In this document: in pieces, positions 12,954 to 22,118 of the stretch | Position numbering within the stretch: position 1 is the first letter of the stretch | Layout: each line of letters begins with the position of its first letter | From: an uncultured Allomuricauda sp. | Lineage (GTDB): Bacteria > Bacteroidota > Bacteroidia > Flavobacteriales > Flavobacteriaceae | Direction: 5' to 3' | Assembly (NCBI RefSeq): GCF_947499585.1 | Contig: NZ_CANMOO010000002.1 | Location: forward strand, 1 to 64,000 | DNA length: 64,000 bases | Notes under the pieces: generated by a model | Database searches by the model: none | What the model saw: only the letters and a program-made list of their open reading frames with translations | What the model was told of the DNA's origin: nothing | Translations under genes and position numbers: made by a program

Positions 12954-14042
12954 ATGAAAATTAGTGTCTGGTTTTTGACTTTGGCAATTGTCCTTTCGTC
13001 CTGCAAAACAAATTCTGAAAATAGTGATTCAAAGGAAACCTCAGTATCTGAAACCAACAAACGGTCGGTCAGAAAAATTGATGTGCATTCACACTATAAG
13101 TTTCCTAGGGAATACCTTCCCGCATTACATGAAAAATGGAATATGCAATCGGTTTTAGTGGATGTTTCCATTAAAGACTCAACAGGAATCAATAGAAGTT
13201 GGGATTCCTATTTAGCTCATGCCCAAAAACATTCCGATTTGTTTTTTCTCTGCTCTTCGTTAATCGGCGTAGGAATCGATTCTCCTGATTTTGCGGAACA
13301 AGCAATCCAACAATTAAAAAGAGAAATCGATTCTGGTGCAAGAATGGTCAAAGTTTGGAAGAACTTTGGAATGGTAACCAAAGACACCTCTGGGCATTTT
13401 ATTCAAATAGATGATTCCCGCTTGCAACCCATTTGGGATTTTCTGAAGCAAAAAAATATTACAGTAATGGCACATATAGGTGAACCAGAACAAGCCTGGA
13501 GACCATTAGATCCTAACAACCCACATTACGGATATTATAAAAACAATCCACAATACCACGCCTATAAATTTCCCGAAATACCTTCTTATGAGACCATTAT
13601 CAGTGCAAGGGACAAGTGGATTGAAAACAATCCCGATTTAAAAATTCTGTGTGCCCATATAGGAAGTATGTCCCATAGTGTTGATATGGTAAGTGAACGC
13701 CTTGATAGATTTTCAAATATGTATGTGGAGCTTGCAGCTCGGTTTGGGGATTTAGCCAATCAAGACTCTAAAAAGGTAAGAGCGTTTTTTGAAAAATATC
13801 AAGATAAAATACTATTCGGTTCGGATTATGGCAATTCTGCTCCCGAAAACATGATGTCCCCATACGAACTTAAGGAAGAGGAAATGAATCTTGACCAAAG
13901 CTACAATCAATTATGGCGTTATTTAAGCAGTTCTGACTCTTTGGTTATACGCGGACAAAAAACGCAAGGGTTACAACTTTCAAAAGAAATTCTTCACAAA
14001 ATATATTATAAAAATGCTGTATCTTTTTTAGCATTACGCTGA
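12954..14042 (+). CDS. Amidohydrolase-family lipoprotein
   Basis: A 362-residue protein with a lipoprotein signal (Cys17 in IVLSSC) followed by an amidohydrolase-2 type TIM barrel. Metal-site motifs in order are KIDVHSHYKFP (first strand; the usual HxH appears as HSH), VMAHIGEPEQAW, LKILCAHIGSM and ILFGSDYG, where the aspartate would be the last metal ligand. Enzymes of this group are decarboxylases, lactonases or hydrolases; the substrate cannot be read here. Being tethered to the envelope is unusual compared with most cytoplasmic members. A stretch of 154 nt without obvious signals follows. Confidence 0.8.
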   Translation: MKISVWFLTLAIVLSSCKTNSENSDSKETSVSETNKRSVRKIDVHSHYKFPREYLPALHEKWNMQSVLVDVSIKDSTGINRSWDSYLAHAQKHSDLFFLCSSLIGVGIDSPDFAEQAIQQLKREIDSGARMVKVWKNFGMVTKDTSGHFIQIDDSRLQPIWDFLKQKNITVMAHIGEPEQAWRPLDPNNPHYGYYKNNPQYHAYKFPEIPSYETIISARDKWIENNPDLKILCAHIGSMSHSVDMVSERLDRFSNMYVELAARFGDLANQDSKKVRAFFEKYQDKILFGSDYGNSAPENMMSPYELKEEEMNLDQSYNQLWRYLSSSDSLVIRGQKTQGLQLSKEILHKIYYKNAVSFLALR

Positions 14043-14196: not shown

Positions 14197-16044
14197 ATGG
14201 AGGAGGTTTATATCAATGCCCTAGGAGCTTATCTGCCAAACAATCCAATTTCTAATGAAGAAATGGAAGATTATCTTGGAAAAATACATGGTAAAGCAAG
14301 TAGGGTCAAGTCCAAAATTCTAAGTCAGAATGGAATTCATAATAGGTTTTATGCTTTGGATAAAAATCAGAAAAGCACTCACTCCAATGCTCAATTAGCT
14401 GCAATGGCATGTAAAGCCGCTCTTAAAAAAAGTAGCGTGCTCAATCAAGATTTACAAATGATTTCAGCCGGCACAACCCAAGGTGACCTCCCTGTTCCGG
14501 GTTTTGCTAGTTTGGTGCATGCAGAACTTGGCACTACTCATTGCGAGTTAGCCAGTTTTCAGAGTGTTTGCGCAAGCGGAATGATGGCCATTAAAAGTGC
14601 CTATTCTCAAATTAAAGCGGATGAAAAAGAAAACGCGCTTTGTGTTGGAAGTGAATTTGCCAGTAGACTCTTTAAGGCATCAAGATTTGAAGGCCAAGAA
14701 AAGAAGTCCATCCCCTTCGATACCGATTTTTTAAGATGGATGTTATCTGATGGTGCCGGTGCAATGGTTCTGGAAAATAAACAAAACACAAAAGGGCTTT
14801 CCCTAAAGATAGAGTGGATAGATATAAAATCTTACGCAAATGAGAATCCGCTTTGTATGTATGTTGGCGCCATGGGCAAGGATAATTTTGTAAAAGGGTG
14901 GCTAGATTATCCTGATTATGAAACTGCTTCAAAAGATGGTGCAATTAATTTGAAACAAAATACCAGGCTTTTAAACAAGGTTATTGAAGTGGGGGTGTCC
15001 CACTACTTCAATTTAATTGATCAGGATAAAATAATCACTGAGGAAATTGATTGGTTTTGTTGCCATTACTCATCCCTTTATTTTAAACAACCCATAATAG
15101 ATCTTTTAAAAAAAGGCGGGGCCAATATTCCTGAAGAAAAATGGTTTAGCAACTTAACCAGTAAAGGCAATACTGGTTCAGCATCAATGTTTATAATGCT
15201 TGAAGAATTGATGTACTCCGGTAATTTGAAGGAAGGCGATACCATTATATGTATGGTTCCGGAAAGCGGCAGGTTTATAACTTCTTTCATGAAACTCAAA
15301 GTGGTTGGGAATGCAAAAAAAATAGCTCCCAAATATTCAATTAGAAAAGTCGAGGCTCCAGGTCTTAATATAGACAGGAATCCAACATCAGAATGGCTGG
15401 TTAGACAGTTGACCCAAATTTGGATTGATTTTGAAAACAAACTATTGGAAATTCCCATTGTTAAGCAGATTCATCAGGGAACTCTTAGTATTGAAAACTA
15501 CAAATTGCTTTTGTTTGATCTAAGACAACAGGTCATTGATGGTTCTCAATGGATTTCTAGAGCAGCTTCCAATATCGATATTTCTTTATTTGAACTTAGA
15601 TCTGCTTTTATAAAACATACTGCCACTGAACACAAAGATTTTCAGCTCTTGGAAAAAAACTATGTAGCACTTGGGGAGTCTTTGGAAAAAATTCAGCTTG
15701 GAGAGAAAAACATTGGAAGTGCGGCTTTGTCCTCCTTTATGTTTCAGAGAGCAAGTAGTCCAAATCCAATTGATCTATTGGGCGCAATGTTCATTATTGA
15801 GGGCATTGGAAAGCGGCTTGCAGGATATTGGGGAAACCTAATTCAGGATCAACTCAAACTTGAAGACAATCAGGTTTCATTTTTAACCTATCATGGTGTA
15901 GCAGATGAAAATCATTTTCATCATTTGGAAGAAGCCTTGAACCACCCCTTAATGAATATGGAGCTGGCAAGGCAAATTGCCAAAACAGCAAAAACTACAG
16001 CACTATTGTATCATTTGCAGTTAAAAGAACTGGGTAATTATTAA
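14197..16044 (+). CDS. Ketosynthase III fused to a haem-oxygenase-like diiron domain
   Basis: A 615-residue two-domain protein. Residues 1-365 are a 3-oxoacyl-ACP synthase III (FabH/KAS III fold) with the full Cys-His-Asn triad: C125 (SVCASGMMAI), H290 (FCCHYSSL) and N325 (SKGNTGSAS). Residues 385-610 are all-helical and resemble iron-containing redox enzymes of the haem-oxygenase-like diiron oxidase (HDO) group: E478 (TATEHKDF), E535 (FIIEGIGK) and the H566-x3-D570-x2-H573 helix match the spacing of ligands in CADD-type HDOs. HDOs perform oxidative C-C or C-N cleavage or N-oxygenation. A condensing enzyme joined to a diiron oxygenase suggests making then oxidising an acyl product, but the substrate is unknown. 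The next gene begins 9 nt later. Confidence 0.82.
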   Translation: MEEVYINALGAYLPNNPISNEEMEDYLGKIHGKASRVKSKILSQNGIHNRFYALDKNQKSTHSNAQLAAMACKAALKKSSVLNQDLQMISAGTTQGDLPVPGFASLVHAELGTTHCELASFQSVCASGMMAIKSAYSQIKADEKENALCVGSEFASRLFKASRFEGQEKKSIPFDTDFLRWMLSDGAGAMVLENKQNTKGLSLKIEWIDIKSYANENPLCMYVGAMGKDNFVKGWLDYPDYETASKDGAINLKQNTRLLNKVIEVGVSHYFNLIDQDKIITEEIDWFCCHYSSLYFKQPIIDLLKKGGANIPEEKWFSNLTSKGNTGSASMFIMLEELMYSGNLKEGDTIICMVPESGRFITSFMKLKVVGNAKKIAPKYSIRKVEAPGLNIDRNPTSEWLVRQLTQIWIDFENKLLEIPIVKQIHQGTLSIENYKLLLFDLRQQVIDGSQWISRAASNIDISLFELRSAFIKHTATEHKDFQLLEKNYVALGESLEKIQLGEKNIGSAALSSFMFQRASSPNPIDLLGAMFIIEGIGKRLAGYWGNLIQDQLKLEDNQVSFLTYHGVADENHFHHLEEALNHPLMNMELARQIAKTAKTTALLYHLQLKELGNY

Positions 16045-16053
16045 TTTACAGCT

Positions 16054-16950
16054 ATGGATAATCAATTTGACATAAAAAATCATGATACCAGAGACCCCAA
16101 CCCTTGGTTGGCAATGTATCTGGACAGTAGTATCCCGATTAATATTTTGACCAAGCAGGCCTTAATGCGCGATAACAACAGTAAATCCACTAGGTATCTG
16201 CTTCCTTTTATCAAGTTTTGGTCAAAAATTTCAATGTTCTTTATTCATATTTTTAAGTTTTTCTTTCCAAAATTCTTTAATTCTTCCAAGGCCCTCCATA
16301 GAATATTGGCGTGGGGATTAAAGCGGTTTGTTAGCCCAGATGCCAATCTATTGATTTTTCGTCATTTTCATGCAGGAAGTGAAATATTGGAATTTGTCGC
16401 TAAAAATGTAGATGGGATTCAAGTTACCACAAGTCCATTAAAACCATATGATTTCAATGACGTTAAAGATGATCTTTTCTTAAATCATGATTTAAACCTG
16501 TACAATTTTGTAATTAAATTAAACAGTGAATTGAAAGAAAAAGGATTGGTACTACAAAAGCAGGATACATTAAATCTAAGTATGGTTTCTGAAAATCAAT
16601 TTAAGCATATTGAATTTCCAAAGAAATGGACAAACGTCCTTGATTTAAGATCTGCCATAGAATTGTTTACCCCCTTTTACCAACTTTTTCTCACTGCAAA
16701 TGATTTTGTAAGAGCTTCAAATTCCTTACAGTTAGACGAGACCGTTGCAATTTATACCACCCAAATATTGGGAACACCTGGACATTTAGGATTGGTTAAC
16801 AACAAGCACCCCATGGTCCCTACATCAACTTATACTGCTGCGTATCGACTTGTGCTTCATGGGCTTGCCACTGAAACTTTGCATGAGATATTGGTAAATA
16901 TCAAGCTAGGTCGCTCCAAAGATGGCATAGTAACTCCTACAGCAGTGTAA
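16054..16950 (+). CDS. Unrecognised partner of the ketosynthase-diiron fusion
   Basis: A 298-residue, mostly helical protein that I do not recognise with confidence. A basic, hydrophobic stretch (about 45-90, with FFIHIFKFFFPKFF) could be a membrane-contacting helix. Then come RHFHAGSEILEF (about 107-118), NHDLNLYNF, LDETVAIYTTQILG and LHGLATETLHEIL, a set of His/Glu/Asp residues on predicted helices that could bind metal. It starts 9 nt after the fusion gene, so cotranscription and a shared pathway are very likely. It could be a second oxygenase-like fold or a lipid-binding partner; both are guesses. Confidence 0.7.
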   Translation: MDNQFDIKNHDTRDPNPWLAMYLDSSIPINILTKQALMRDNNSKSTRYLLPFIKFWSKISMFFIHIFKFFFPKFFNSSKALHRILAWGLKRFVSPDANLLIFRHFHAGSEILEFVAKNVDGIQVTTSPLKPYDFNDVKDDLFLNHDLNLYNFVIKLNSELKEKGLVLQKQDTLNLSMVSENQFKHIEFPKKWTNVLDLRSAIELFTPFYQLFLTANDFVRASNSLQLDETVAIYTTQILGTPGHLGLVNNKHPMVPTSTYTAAYRLVLHGLATETLHEILVNIKLGRSKDGIVTPTAV

Positions 16951-17004: not shown

Positions 17005-17553
17005 TCAAAACAAAAGCACTGAAGCATTCTCTCTGATTATCCGTAAGGCCTTGGACATTTGGCTCTCTACAGTTTTGATAGAAATACCCATATCCTCAGC
17101 AATTTCCCTATACTTTCTGCGCTCCAACTTATTCATGATAAAAATCTCTTTGCATTTTGGGGGTAACTTATCAATGAGTTCTTCCAGTTTGTTGTAGCTA
17201 GCTCTTATAAGATCATCATCTTCCTTAAGTTCAAAATAGCTGTCGTAAATCGTCTCCCATCGAATTCTATCTAAAAGATCTGGTTTCTTTTTGTCTTTTC
17301 TTAGTTGAAGTAAAAATTGATTATGACATGATTTAAAGAGATATGCCTTAAGCGATTCTCGGATGGTTATCTGATGTTTCTTTTCCCAAATCTTAATCAT
17401 TGTCTCTTGAACAATATCCTTGGAAAGGCTTCTATTACCGCTTAGTTTAAAGATATAATTACACAGCCAATCATAGTATTCATTGAACAAATACTCATAG
17501 GCAGATACGTCACCTTTCTTTAAATTTTCTACAAGTATTTTTTCGTTCATCAT
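17005..17553 (-). CDS. ECF sigma factor (FecI-like)
   Basis: A 182-residue RNA polymerase sigma-70 factor of the extracytoplasmic-function group expanded in Bacteroidota. Region 2 spans about residues 18-85 (YEYLFNEYYDWLCNYIFKLSG, DIVQETMIKIWEK) and region 4 about 120-172 with the helix-turn-helix RKYREIAEDMGISIKTVESQ. It is divergent from the FecR-like anti-sigma gene and TonB receptor, the standard cell-surface signalling set, and very probably directs their transcription. Translation can begin at either of two adjacent ATGs. Confidence 0.92.
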   Translation of the reverse strand: MMNEKILVENLKKGDVSAYEYLFNEYYDWLCNYIFKLSGNRSLSKDIVQETMIKIWEKKHQITIRESLKAYLFKSCHNQFLLQLRKDKKKPDLLDRIRWETIYDSYFELKEDDDLIRASYNKLEELIDKLPPKCKEIFIMNKLERRKYREIAEDMGISIKTVESQMSKALRIIRENASVLLF

Positions 17554-17641
17554 AAAAAAATATAGGCTAAAGTATAAAATTTATAAAAAAAGTAGGGGTT
17601 TTTTGTCAAATTCGTATCATAGAGATGTAAGACTATCAAAA

Positions 17642-18790
17642 ATGCAAGATTTAATTGAGAAATTTTTAAACCGAACTATTTCCGCTAACGAAAGAAAGCG
17701 ATTAAAAAAGTGGGTGCTGGCCAACAAGGAAAACCTAAATACTTTTAAAAAAGAGATAAAAAATAGGTCGGAAAATAATTTACACCATCACTTTGATGGA
17801 AAAGATGCTTTTAAAGAATTCATGATTGCTGTGGATAAAGGTAGGGTCATAAGAAGAAAAAAACTTCACTTGGTTCGTTATGCAGCTCTTTTTATAGGCC
17901 TCTTAGCTACTGCTAGTTTTATATATGTCTCCCAGTTTAACAATAAAGGTAATTCTGAATCAACGCTGGTAAACAGTCTATCCAATCAAATAGTAATTAC
18001 GCTTGCAGATGGAACGAAACAAGTAATAGCGGCGGATAACAGAAAAGTACTTACTGACAAGAAAGGCAATGTTATAGCAGAAAAAGAATCAACCGGGTTG
18101 GATTTTAGTCAAATAGCAAATCCATCTGATGATAATATAGTTTTCAACGAAGTTTATATCCCTTATGGTCAAAAATTCAGGATAACACTTTCTGACGGTA
18201 CAAAGGTTTGGTTAAATTCAGGATCTAGACTGCGGTTTCCAAAAAACTTAAATACATCTGCCCAAAATCGCATGGTTTATTTAGAAGGCGAAGCCTATTT
18301 TGATGTTACCAAAGATGAAAAAAGGCCTTTTATTGTTAATGCAGAAAACGTGGACATCAAAGTTCTGGGAACACAATTCAACGTATCCGCTTATAAATCT
18401 GATGGTGAAATCTCTACTACCTTGGTAGAGGGTTCTGTAAATGTTTATGAGAACTCTAACCCTGATACAAAAATTCATCTTAGCCCCAGCTATCAAGCTG
18501 CATTTATAAAACAGAACGGCACTTTGACCAAACAAAAGGTTGATGTACGTACTTATACCAGTTGGATGGAAAACAGATTGATCATAGACAATTTATCTTT
18601 TGAACAAATCCTGCGCAAATTGGAAAGAGCTCACAATGTTTCAATTGTCAACAAGGTTGAAAGCTTAAATAACGAGATGTTTACAGGAGAATTTGAGAAC
18701 GAACGCATAGAGACTATTTTAAATACAATAGCTTCCAGTACACCATTTACCTATAAAATAGAGAACAATGTAATCACCATTTTAAAATAG
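17642..18790 (+). CDS. FecR-family anti-sigma factor
   Basis: Inner-membrane regulator that holds the ECF sigma factor and responds to the TonB receptor. I prefer the ATG at 17642 (382 residues) to the frame start at 17603, since the sequence from MQDLIEKFLNRTISANE is the usual N-terminal cytoplasmic anti-sigma helix bundle. A transmembrane helix lies at about residues 77-95, followed by the FecR domain (VYIPYGQKFRITLSDGTKVW, YLEGEAYFDVTKDEKRPF, VLGTQFNVSAY) and a C-terminal DUF4974/STN-like domain (FEQILRKLERAHNVSI). The receptor gene follows 79 nt later. Confidence 0.93.
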   Translation: MQDLIEKFLNRTISANERKRLKKWVLANKENLNTFKKEIKNRSENNLHHHFDGKDAFKEFMIAVDKGRVIRRKKLHLVRYAALFIGLLATASFIYVSQFNNKGNSESTLVNSLSNQIVITLADGTKQVIAADNRKVLTDKKGNVIAEKESTGLDFSQIANPSDDNIVFNEVYIPYGQKFRITLSDGTKVWLNSGSRLRFPKNLNTSAQNRMVYLEGEAYFDVTKDEKRPFIVNAENVDIKVLGTQFNVSAYKSDGEISTTLVEGSVNVYENSNPDTKIHLSPSYQAAFIKQNGTLTKQKVDVRTYTSWMENRLIIDNLSFEQILRKLERAHNVSIVNKVESLNNEMFTGEFENERIETILNTIASSTPFTYKIENNVITILK

Positions 18791-18869
18791 AAAGGGAAGG
18801 TGTTGCAGCACCTCCCCCCATATTAGATCGCTAACAAGAATTATCACTAACAATCAAACACTCAAAATT

Positions 18870-21800
18870 ATGAAAAAAAACATGGTTTTCAAGTCACCCT
18901 TTTTCTTGGTGGCCTGTACAAAATTGACCTTAAAAATGAAGTTAAGTTTTTTTCTCACTTTATTCATTATTTGTCAGCTTACTGCCAGTGATATTTACTC
19001 GCAGAGGAAAGTCCATTTCGAATTTGAAAATGTTCCTTTAAAAGACATTCTTAATGAGATTAAAAAACAATCTGGTTACAATTTCTTCTATAACATGAAC
19101 GAAATCAATGATACCAAAAAAACCTCATTGACCGCATCAGACGAAAAGATATTCGCAGTTTTGGATAGGCTCTCGAAACAAGAAAAACTGGATTATTCCA
19201 TAAATGGAAATCAGATTGTACTTAAAAAACAGTCGTTGGATAAAAGCTCCATCTACCCTGTTAATGACCAACAGCAAGTAAGAGGCTCGGTTAAGGACAG
19301 TGATGGCAACCCATTGCCCGGGGCAAATGTCTTGGTGAAAGGCACCACAAATGGTTCACAAGCAGACTTTGATGGTAATTTCACTCTAGAAATTGATGAC
19401 GAAAATGCCATCCTGGTCATCTCCTATCTTGGTTTCAAGACAACTGAAGTCTCACTGAATGGACAGTCTACAGTCGCGATAGTCCTTCTGGAAGACGCTG
19501 CCCGATTGGATGATGTGGTTGTAGTAGGGTCCAGAAACCCTAACAGAACAGCAACCGAAACTACCGTTCCAGTGGATGTAATTGATATGGCCACTATTGC
19601 CAATCAAGGACCACAGGTTAGTGTAAATGAAATATTGAACTATGTTGCGCCTTCTTTTACCTCACAATCGCAAACAGTATCAGATGGTACAGATCATGTT
19701 GACCCCGCTTCACTTCGTGGCTTAGGTCCAGATCAAGTATTGGTGTTGATCAACGGAAAAAGAAGACATAACTCAGCTCTGATAAATGTTAATGGAACTG
19801 TTGGTGCAGGAAGTGTAGGAACAGATATGAACGCTATCCCCGTAGCAGCCATTCAACGTATAGAAGTGCTTAGAGATGGAGCAGCGGCCCAATATGGTTC
19901 AGATGCCATTGCCGGAGTCATCAACATTGTGCTTAAAAAATCAACCGGTAAGCTTGATCTTTCATTGACCTCTGGAGCAAATTTTAGTGAAAATAGCAAT
20001 CAATTTGAAGGAGGAAGTGATGGTGAAAAATTTCAACTAGATGCCAATTTTGGACTTCCGATCGGAGATCGTGGGTATATTAACTTTACCGGTTCCCTTT
20101 CCACTAGAGAACCCGCACTAAGAAACAAGGATTACGCAGGTGATATTTTTCAAGGGTTTCATGGAGCAGAGCGTGTTTTTGCCGCTGGTGGAGGAACGGT
20201 AGCTGATATGACCTTGCAGGACTATGCCAATGCCGCACAGGGTATTGGGTACCTAGACCAAGGAGTGAAAGATCAAATTGCAGGTCTAAATCTAAATGAT
20301 GAAACCGATGTTACCACATTTCGTGGTTTGTTAGGTTTTGATGCCGATGAGGCTGAACTTTCTGCCCGCGGACTAACACGAAAAGATTTTAGGTTTAAAG
20401 TAGGTACGTCAAGACTAAGAGAAGGGAAATTCTTTGCAAACCTTTCAATCCCAGTTTCAGAAACAACAGAGGTATATGGTTTCGGGGGAATAAGCTATCG
20501 TCAAGGATTGGCTTCAGGATTCTATAGAAGACCAGCACAAGGTGATGGTCGTGCCAACACTCCTGCATTCCCGAATGGCTTTTTACCCAGTATTGGGACG
20601 GATATTTTAGATCAATCCCTTGCCATCGGAATTAAAGGAAAAGTAAATGAGTGGGATGTGGATTTTTCAAATACCTATGGTAGAAATACATTTGATATTA
20701 CGGTAGGAAACTCTAGTAATGGAACCTTAGGTGTTGCTACTCCACGTATTTTTGATGCTGGTGGACTAAGCTTTTCACAGAATACAACTAATTTGGATTT
20801 TAGCAGGTTCCATGAAGATATTTTTGAAGGATTCAACGTTGCTTTTGGAGCTGAATACAAGGTTGAAAAGTATGAAATTATAGCTGGAGAAGAGTCATCA
20901 TACACCAGCTTTGATATCAATGGAAATCCTGTAAATAGCGTAACTCCAGACGATCAACTGGTAAGAAACAATTTTACCGGCGCACCATTGGGTGGAGGGT
21001 CTCAAGTTTTCCGTGGGTACGACCCTGGTAATGCAACAGAAAAATTCAGGAACAATATCTCCCTTTATGCTGATTTTGAGGCAGACTTTACCGAAAACTG
21101 GTTGCTAAGTTTAGCGGGTAGGTATGAAAATTATTCGGACTTTGGGAGCACCTTCAACTACAAACTGGCCACAAGATTAAAGCTCACAGAAAATCTTGCG
21201 TTAAGAGCAGCAAGCAGTTCTGGTTTTAGGGCACCATCATTGCACCAACAGTTTTTTAGTAGAACAAGTACGGTATTTGTGGATAATGTGCCTTTTGAAC
21301 AAGGAACTTTCACCAATGACAGTAGGGCAGCTACACTTATCGGTATTGATAAGTTAAGAGAGGAAACTTCCAATAGTTTTAGCGCAGGGTTAACAGGTAA
21401 TTTTGGCGACTTTTCAATCACGGTTGATGGATACCTAATTTATATTGACGACCGTATTGTGTATAGCGGAAGCTTCGGAAACGGCGGTGATCCTGAACTT
21501 ACATCAATTTTTGCGTCTGCTGGAGCTACTAGTGCTCGATTCTTTGTAAATGCCATTGACACTAAATCTTCAGGTTTGGATATTGTTCTTTCTCATAAAA
21601 CAAACTTGGGAGATGCCATATTAAAAAATGATTTAGCGGCCACTTTCAACAAAACAGAAGTTGAAAACATTTTTGTTCCAGAACTCATAGAAAATGCCGG
21701 ACTAACCGGGTCTTTCTTTGATGGTCAAGAAGAAGCATTTTTAACCCTGGCCCAACCAAGAACAAAATTGAATCTGACCAATCTGGTTTCTTTAAATACC

Positions 21801-22118
21801 TGGGATTTTCTATTAAGAAATGTATACTTCGGAGAAGTTACCGATCCTGACGATTTTAATGGAGATGCCCGTGTAGATGGTACCACCGTTAGTGATGATG
21901 CCATTTATGCTGGAAAATTGATTACCGATCTTACAGTGACAAAAACATTCACTGATAACCTTTCATTAACCATTGGGGCCAATAACCTTTTTGATGTTTA
22001 CCCAGATGAAAATAGAGAGGGAGGTACCTCAGGAGACCAATTTGTGTATTCAAGAAGAACGTCTCAATTTGGATATAGTGGCCGTTTTCTTTTTGCAAGA
22101 TTAAGATTGAGTTTATAG
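18870..22118 (+). CDS. TonB-dependent receptor with STN signalling domain
   Basis: A 1082-residue outer-membrane transporter. In order: an extended signal peptide (about 1-45), an STN domain (47-110; FENVPLKDILNEIKKQSGYNF) for signalling to FecR, a carboxypeptidase-regulatory-like domain (125-210; GSVKDSDGNPLPGANVLVKG), the plug (about 225-345; GSRNPNRTATETTVPVDV, IEVLRDGAAAQYGSDAIAGV) and the beta-barrel to the C-terminus. No SusD-like partner gene follows, so a glycan PUL is unlikely; a siderophore, vitamin or peptide substrate is more plausible. Regulated by the adjacent sigma/FecR pair. Confidence 0.92.
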   Translation: MKKNMVFKSPFFLVACTKLTLKMKLSFFLTLFIICQLTASDIYSQRKVHFEFENVPLKDILNEIKKQSGYNFFYNMNEINDTKKTSLTASDEKIFAVLDRLSKQEKLDYSINGNQIVLKKQSLDKSSIYPVNDQQQVRGSVKDSDGNPLPGANVLVKGTTNGSQADFDGNFTLEIDDENAILVISYLGFKTTEVSLNGQSTVAIVLLEDAARLDDVVVVGSRNPNRTATETTVPVDVIDMATIANQGPQVSVNEILNYVAPSFTSQSQTVSDGTDHVDPASLRGLGPDQVLVLINGKRRHNSALINVNGTVGAGSVGTDMNAIPVAAIQRIEVLRDGAAAQYGSDAIAGVINIVLKKSTGKLDLSLTSGANFSENSNQFEGGSDGEKFQLDANFGLPIGDRGYINFTGSLSTREPALRNKDYAGDIFQGFHGAERVFAAGGGTVADMTLQDYANAAQGIGYLDQGVKDQIAGLNLNDETDVTTFRGLLGFDADEAELSARGLTRKDFRFKVGTSRLREGKFFANLSIPVSETTEVYGFGGISYRQGLASGFYRRPAQGDGRANTPAFPNGFLPSIGTDILDQSLAIGIKGKVNEWDVDFSNTYGRNTFDITVGNSSNGTLGVATPRIFDAGGLSFSQNTTNLDFSRFHEDIFEGFNVAFGAEYKVEKYEIIAGEESSYTSFDINGNPVNSVTPDDQLVRNNFTGAPLGGGSQVFRGYDPGNATEKFRNNISLYADFEADFTENWLLSLAGRYENYSDFGSTFNYKLATRLKLTENLALRAASSSGFRAPSLHQQFFSRTSTVFVDNVPFEQGTFTNDSRAATLIGIDKLREETSNSFSAGLTGNFGDFSITVDGYLIYIDDRIVYSGSFGNGGDPELTSIFASAGATSARFFVNAIDTKSSGLDIVLSHKTNLGDAILKNDLAATFNKTEVENIFVPELIENAGLTGSFFDGQEEAFLTLAQPRTKLNLTNLVSLNTWDFLLRNVYFGEVTDPDDFNGDARVDGTTVSDDAIYAGKLITDLTVTKTFTDNLSLTIGANNLFDVYPDENREGGTSGDQFVYSRRTSQFGYSGRFLFARLRLSL

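Follow-up and report, generated by a model that had tools for sequence, protein, structure and literature searches.

The closest described relatives of the condensing enzyme considered here are StlD of Photorhabdus, from isopropylstilbene biosynthesis, and DarB of the dialkylresorcinol and flexirubin pathways, two members of one clade that share a Cys-His-Asn triad and a single-domain size of about 370-380 aa. Both combine two acyl chains into 1,3-cyclohexanediones (PMC5515871), a ring formation that a passage of PMC3949708 credits to Fuchs et al. 2013. In this reaction one activated acyl chain is coupled with an enoyl partner (2-butenoyl; 5-phenyl-2,4-pentadienoyl), and the product reported for DarB is 4-carboxy-2,5-dialkylcyclohexane-1,3-dione (PMC5515871). 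DarB works with a separate aromatase, DarA, which in Azoarcus is annotated as a DAR-aromatase (PMC3949708). The haem-oxygenase-like dimetal oxidases (HDOs) of the PF14518 superfamily include UndA, a fatty-acid oxidative decarboxylase, and for most characterised HDOs the reaction is a C-C cleavage, a desaturation or an N-oxygenation (PMC13108848). A six-residue motif, E-H-X-H-D/E-H, distributed over helices 1, 2 and 3, is present in about 85% of HDO groups (PMC11363339).

Relatives of both enzyme types are joined in one polypeptide in the window, the 64,000-nucleotide stretch of Allomuricauda DNA analysed here (Table 1). The fusion gene is followed after only 9 nt, from stop to start, by a gene for a DUF6999 protein, both ORFs being intact at the spacing given by an earlier sequence-only reading. 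A scan of GTDB genomes returned 80 DUF6999 loci, to which more were added from sampled genomes, and linkage was counted in the 85 loci whose upstream sequence extended over 4.5 kb or more. In 83 of these a ketosynthase and an oxidase lie directly upstream on the same strand, fused in 81 and split in two (L152 and L153); the exceptions, L094 and L102, have shortened DUF6999 ORFs of 277 and 229 aa. The loci span Bacteroidota, Bacillota (Paenibacillus/Cohnella), Acidobacteriota and Pseudomonadota, so that the fusion, for which the sequence-only reading had looked to the Flavobacteriaceae, is conserved with its partner well beyond that family. Moreover, comparison with the congener G043 gave Ka/Ks values of about 0.04 for the fusion, 0.004 for its oxidase domain and about 0.01 for DUF6999. 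Since the same two-domain protein recurs in so many testable loci under such strong purifying selection, and natural splits also occur, an annotation artefact or a chance, unconserved fusion is ruled out, and the two-domain protein with its adjacent partner is confirmed as real.

Table 1. Coordinates in the window of the ketosynthase-oxidase fusion, its domains and candidate functional residues, and the partner gene.
Feature	Position	Strand	Basis or remark
Ketosynthase-oxidase fusion gene	14197-16044	+	615 aa, intact ORF
StlD/DarB-like ketosynthase domain, residues 1-372	14197..15312	+	NCBIfam PRK06816, PDB 5gk0, AF2 model
C125, active-site cysteine (StlD C126)	14569..14571	+	invariant in 59 fusions; StlD alignment
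H290, active-site histidine (StlD H302)	15064..15066	+	invariant in 59 fusions; StlD alignment
N325, active-site asparagine (StlD N337)	15169..15171	+	invariant in 59 fusions; StlD alignment
Interdomain linker, residues 373-395	15313..15381	+	model: nothing reportable between strand E361-372 and helix H396-416
Haem-oxygenase-like domain PF14518, residues 396-615, and stop codon	15382..16044	+	Pfam, PDB profile, model
Helix-1 cluster H474-x3-E478-x2-D481	15616..15639	+	each residue invariant across the 36 domains
E535, glutamate on helix 2, candidate ligand	15799..15801	+	invariant; helix 527-553
H566-x3-D570-x2-H573, helix-3 candidate metal-site motif	15892..15915	+	invariant; helix 557-581
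DUF6999 partner gene (PF22523)	16054-16950	+	298 aa, intact ORF, E=1.4e-117

The association with DUF6999, which is read as obligate, extends to the level of whole genomes. Among 296 sampled Bacteroidota the oxidase clade was found in four genomes, the same four that carry a full-length DUF6999, and among 398 sampled Pseudomonadota the same nine genomes hold both. A fifth Bacteroidota genome (G315, locus L157) has a partial DUF6999 match interrupted by a stop, together with part of a ketosynthase and no match to the oxidase clade, and possibly represents a decayed or strongly diverged cassette. In the two split loci, both of Pseudomonadota, ketosynthase, oxidase and DUF6999 each have a gene of their own, and these loci lend themselves to the study of single domains in vitro; the DUF6999 of L153 is strongly diverged and has lost H82, H252 and H277. 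Genome G028, of the same genus as the window, contains a far more divergent copy (L160, 56% identical) among other neighbouring genes, and two copies are present in G033, a pattern that suggests horizontal transfer or old paralogy.

Profile, predicted structure and phylogeny concur in placing the N-terminal domain as a StlD/DarB relative; it is neither a generic KAS III nor a housekeeping FabH. The KAS III of the sequence-only reading thus survives as a condensing enzyme and loses its generic label, and the triad then proposed is indeed present and aligns with that of StlD. The domain matched the NCBIfam model PRK06816 of the StlD/DarB family with E=9.1e-130 and 433.1 bits, just under the cut-off of 450, and the DarB model with 396.1 bits, well under the cut-off of 550; unlike StlD and DarB, it is fused to an oxidase and stands below the family thresholds. 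Its best solved relative is StlD (PDB 5gk0, E=4.1e-83), and the AF2 model superposes on StlD 5gk2 with Z 52.2 and an rmsd of 1.7 Å over 366 residues at 41% identity, whereas FabH, PqsD and OleA reach a Z of about 38 or less. In a tree taken without OleA, the fused ketosynthases together with StlD/DarB split from FabH with 100/100 support, and the placements of StlD/DarB as sister to the fused enzymes or nested among them were not separated (AU p 0.065). Such an affinity argues for condensation of two chains followed by cyclisation rather than for simple acyl extension, and the scores below both cut-offs indicate that the product may differ from those of StlD and DarB. The linker that follows the domain is far longer, and of low complexity, in the Paenibacillus locus L107.

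The same comparisons bear on a version of the pathway in line with the sequence-only reading, in which a linear beta-keto acid or an OleA-like two-chain product would be cleaved by the oxidase to an alkene, a methyl ketone or another volatile. OleA is also a structural relative of the ketosynthase (Z 36) and UndA does make 1-alkenes (PMC13108848), but the much greater proximity to the cyclising StlD (Z 52) and the branching with StlD/DarB, in the tree without OleA, render this route quite unlikely.

The C-terminal domain matched PF14518 (Iron-containing redox enzyme) with 33.3 bits against a cut-off of 28.9, the 36 homologues tested all matched it at E<0.1, and the profile of the domain recovered the haem-oxygenase-like fold of PDB 3dde with E=1.1e-11; the fold search with the full-length protein was filled by ketosynthase matches. 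The model is all helical with pLDDT mostly 82-98, and the candidate ligands fall on three helices, 462-491, 527-553 and 557-581, in the helix order expected of HDOs. H474, E478, D481, E535, H566, D570 and H573 are invariant in 36 domains from four phyla, including the naturally separate domain of L153, and among these are the five residues that had been picked out from the single sequence. Like UndA, CADD, SznF and BesC, the domain has PF14518, a glutamate on helix 1, another on helix 2 and a His-x3-Asp-x2-His motif on helix 3, the last in the form known from CADD and SznF. Unlike these enzymes, in addition to its fused condensing enzyme, it has Asp481 in place of the helix-1 histidine, a replacement found in 36 of 36 oxidase domains, and an extra histidine: E478 occupies the canonical first ligand position and H474, one turn before it, is specific to the clade. 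Because the six-residue motif is thus broken, the domain is not classed as a canonical diiron HDO; from its sequence it is better described as an oxidase clade with an altered set of candidate primary ligands. The haem-oxygenase-like diiron oxidase of the sequence-only reading is therefore upheld as regards the PF14518 domain, the diiron ligand set being insecure, and with the canonical helix-1 histidine missing, UndA-like chemistry may not apply.

A protective or regulatory function of this domain, such as the handling of peroxide or O2, has a precedent in DtpC of Acinetobacter baumannii, an HDO-like protein required for desiccation and oxidative-stress tolerance (PMC13232832). DtpC, however, retains six residues that are key to the metal site in other HDOs (PMC13232832), a set from which the domain studied here departs, and physical fusion to a condensing enzyme together with co-located lipid oxygenases makes such a role extremely unlikely.

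The closest relatives of the oxidase domain that were found are standalone PF14518 proteins of Pseudomonadota (E down to 4e-26), most of which, by contrast, retain the canonical E-x2-H in helix 1: the usual form is Y-x3-E-x2-H, and its histidine aligns with D481. Beside their genes, neither an StlD-like ketosynthase nor DUF6999 was seen. In ten Pseudomonadota genomes (L191-L200) the standalone oxidase is accompanied by a PF12261 'thermostable hemolysin', an AMP-binding ligase, a short-chain dehydrogenase and a TPR protein, as exemplified by L197:3170-7507, and in L174 the AMP-binding ligase and the oxidase form one protein. A more distant oxidase match occurs in 74 of the 398 sampled Pseudomonadota.

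The partner is a full-length member of DUF6999 (PF22523), a family without known function, which it matched with 392 bits, above the gathering cut-off, over model positions 1-275 of 275. Its AF2 model is all helical with a mean pLDDT of 83. Neither Foldseek (no match below E 3.4) nor VIA-align 2 (none above Z 4, the top ones being GPCRs and not meaningful) returned a related fold, a profile search of PDB returned no solved relative, and weak Pfam matches were discarded as unconvincing. Polar residues that do not vary among 20 divergent members include R103, H104, N118, H145, D146, D197, N223, D228, N250, R265, H269 and E274. The location of His and acidic invariants on several predicted helices hints at a site for metal or for acid-base chemistry, and in their order H104...H145-D146...D228 some of them look like the HD-domain signature, a resemblance taken as a lead only.

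These residues enter into an alternative in which the oxidase hydroxylates the ring of the cyclohexanedione or resorcinol and the result is a lipid of hydroxylated or quinone type, whose oxidation DUF6999 completes. The altered helix-1 set H474/E478/D481 could allow an O2 chemistry unlike that of UndA, and the invariant His, Asp and Glu of DUF6999 could bind metal; ring hydroxylation nevertheless lies outside the C-C cleavage, desaturation and N-oxygenation of most characterised HDOs (PMC13108848), and metal binding by DUF6999 is conjecture, so that this course is considered unlikely.

In many relatives the gene pair belongs to a larger set. A gene for a PF04116 fatty-acid hydroxylase, a membrane enzyme, lies upstream on the same strand in 58 of the 85 loci, and a PF00487 desaturase is placed between the fusion and DUF6999 in 8 of the first 80; in Pseudomonadota the desaturase can also sit just upstream of the fusion, and in L150 it is found between hydroxylase and fusion. 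The linkage of these lipid oxygenases fits the lipid pathway that had been suggested from the window alone. The cassette hydroxylase had no match in the genome of the window (positive control G279), and the minimal system is therefore the gene pair. In one Acidobacteria MAG (L105:5081-7922) two related genes, of 479 and 446 aa, separate the fusion from DUF6999; the one that was scanned had no Pfam match.

A further difference from the DarB systems concerns the aromatase. At the flexirubin-type loci L158 and L159 a distinct DarA-like gene adjoins darB, whereas cassette genomes usually have none: it was found neither in the genome of the window nor in 18 of 20 other cassette genomes, the positive controls G077 and G064 being detected. 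In the remaining 2 of the 21 cassette genomes it lies on other contigs and not beside the ketosynthase.

Altogether, the pair is read as the core of a conserved, undescribed cassette for an acyl-derived (lipid or polyketide) product, of which an aromatising pathway is tentatively considered the best explanation. The ketosynthase would condense two host acyl thioesters and cyclise them to 4-carboxy-2,5-dialkylcyclohexane-1,3-dione, as has been reported for DarB. With O2, the fused oxidase would then remove a hydrogen from the ring position beta to the carboxylate, with loss of CO2, in an UndA-like manner, or else would simply dehydrogenate the ring; either route would lead to an aromatic dialkylresorcinol-type product, the oxidase standing in for the aromatase DarA. 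DUF6999 would perform or assist a further step on this product, and the hydroxylase and desaturase, where present, would decorate the chains. The two domains of the fusion would accordingly act in sequence on one product, and oxidative tailoring in cis of a two-chain condensation product is regarded as probable. This broad claim is much safer than the specific aromatisation chemistry assigned to the fused oxidase, which is possible and rather doubtful.

The order of the two reactions could also be reversed, the oxidase desaturating an acyl substrate before condensation and so supplying the alpha,beta-unsaturated partner of a DarB-type ketosynthase. DarB and StlD do use an enoyl partner (PMC5515871), HDOs can desaturate (PMC13108848), and a fusion would channel substrate as well as product, but enoyl-ACP is already supplied by fatty-acid synthesis and an oxygenase would be unnecessary, for which reason this order is thought very unlikely.

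Aromatisation is favoured on the grounds that the ketosynthase is nearest to StlD, that a product of DarB has been reported and that DarA, whose absence an oxidase-driven aromatisation would explain, is mostly missing; the presence of UndA among the HDO relatives and of AMP-binding ligases beside the nearest standalone oxidases points the same way. The reading as a cassette is in turn favoured by the retention of the fusion over four phyla, by its natural splits and by the linked lipid hydroxylase and desaturase. Against aromatisation count the sub-cut-off scores of the ketosynthase, the missing helix-1 histidine and the carrier protein, no gene for which was seen among the ORFs between 9.4 and 22.1 kb of the window, in agreement with the sequence-only reading. 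Moreover, an aromatic end product would leave DUF6999 without a role.

Each recognisable domain comes from a known superfamily. In the open-licence literature searched, by contrast, no description was found of a ketosynthase with a PF14518-type oxidase, of DUF6999, of the ligand set or of the cassette, which agrees with the earlier suggestion that the pathway could be undescribed. In its boldest form, the interpretation would be that a new dimetal oxidase subclass (H-x3-E-x2-D), the ketosynthase to which it is fused, and DUF6999 as a metalloenzyme of unrecognised fold make an undescribed class of aromatic or cyclic lipid in at least four phyla, which is conceivable and held with considerable doubt. 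What recurs in four bacterial phyla is a compact cassette of two genes here and three or four elsewhere, which has no described product in that literature and probably makes a lipid-like one. It combines a chain-joining ketosynthase with an O2-dependent domain within a single polypeptide, provides a natural case for testing whether the DarA aromatase can be replaced by an oxidase, sets DUF6999 for the first time in a functional context and exposes a clade of haem-oxygenase-like oxidases that departs from the standard set of metal ligands.

As regards the surroundings of the pair in the window, the amidohydrolase gene at 12954-14042 and the genes on the other side were rejected as cassette parts, since they are not regular neighbours outside the genus. 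The latter, from 17005 to 22118, encode a Sigma-70-family (ECF-like) sigma factor on the minus strand, followed by a FecR-like protein and a TonB-dependent receptor, both on the plus strand; this looks like a typical Bacteroidota uptake and regulation set and is common to several congeners.
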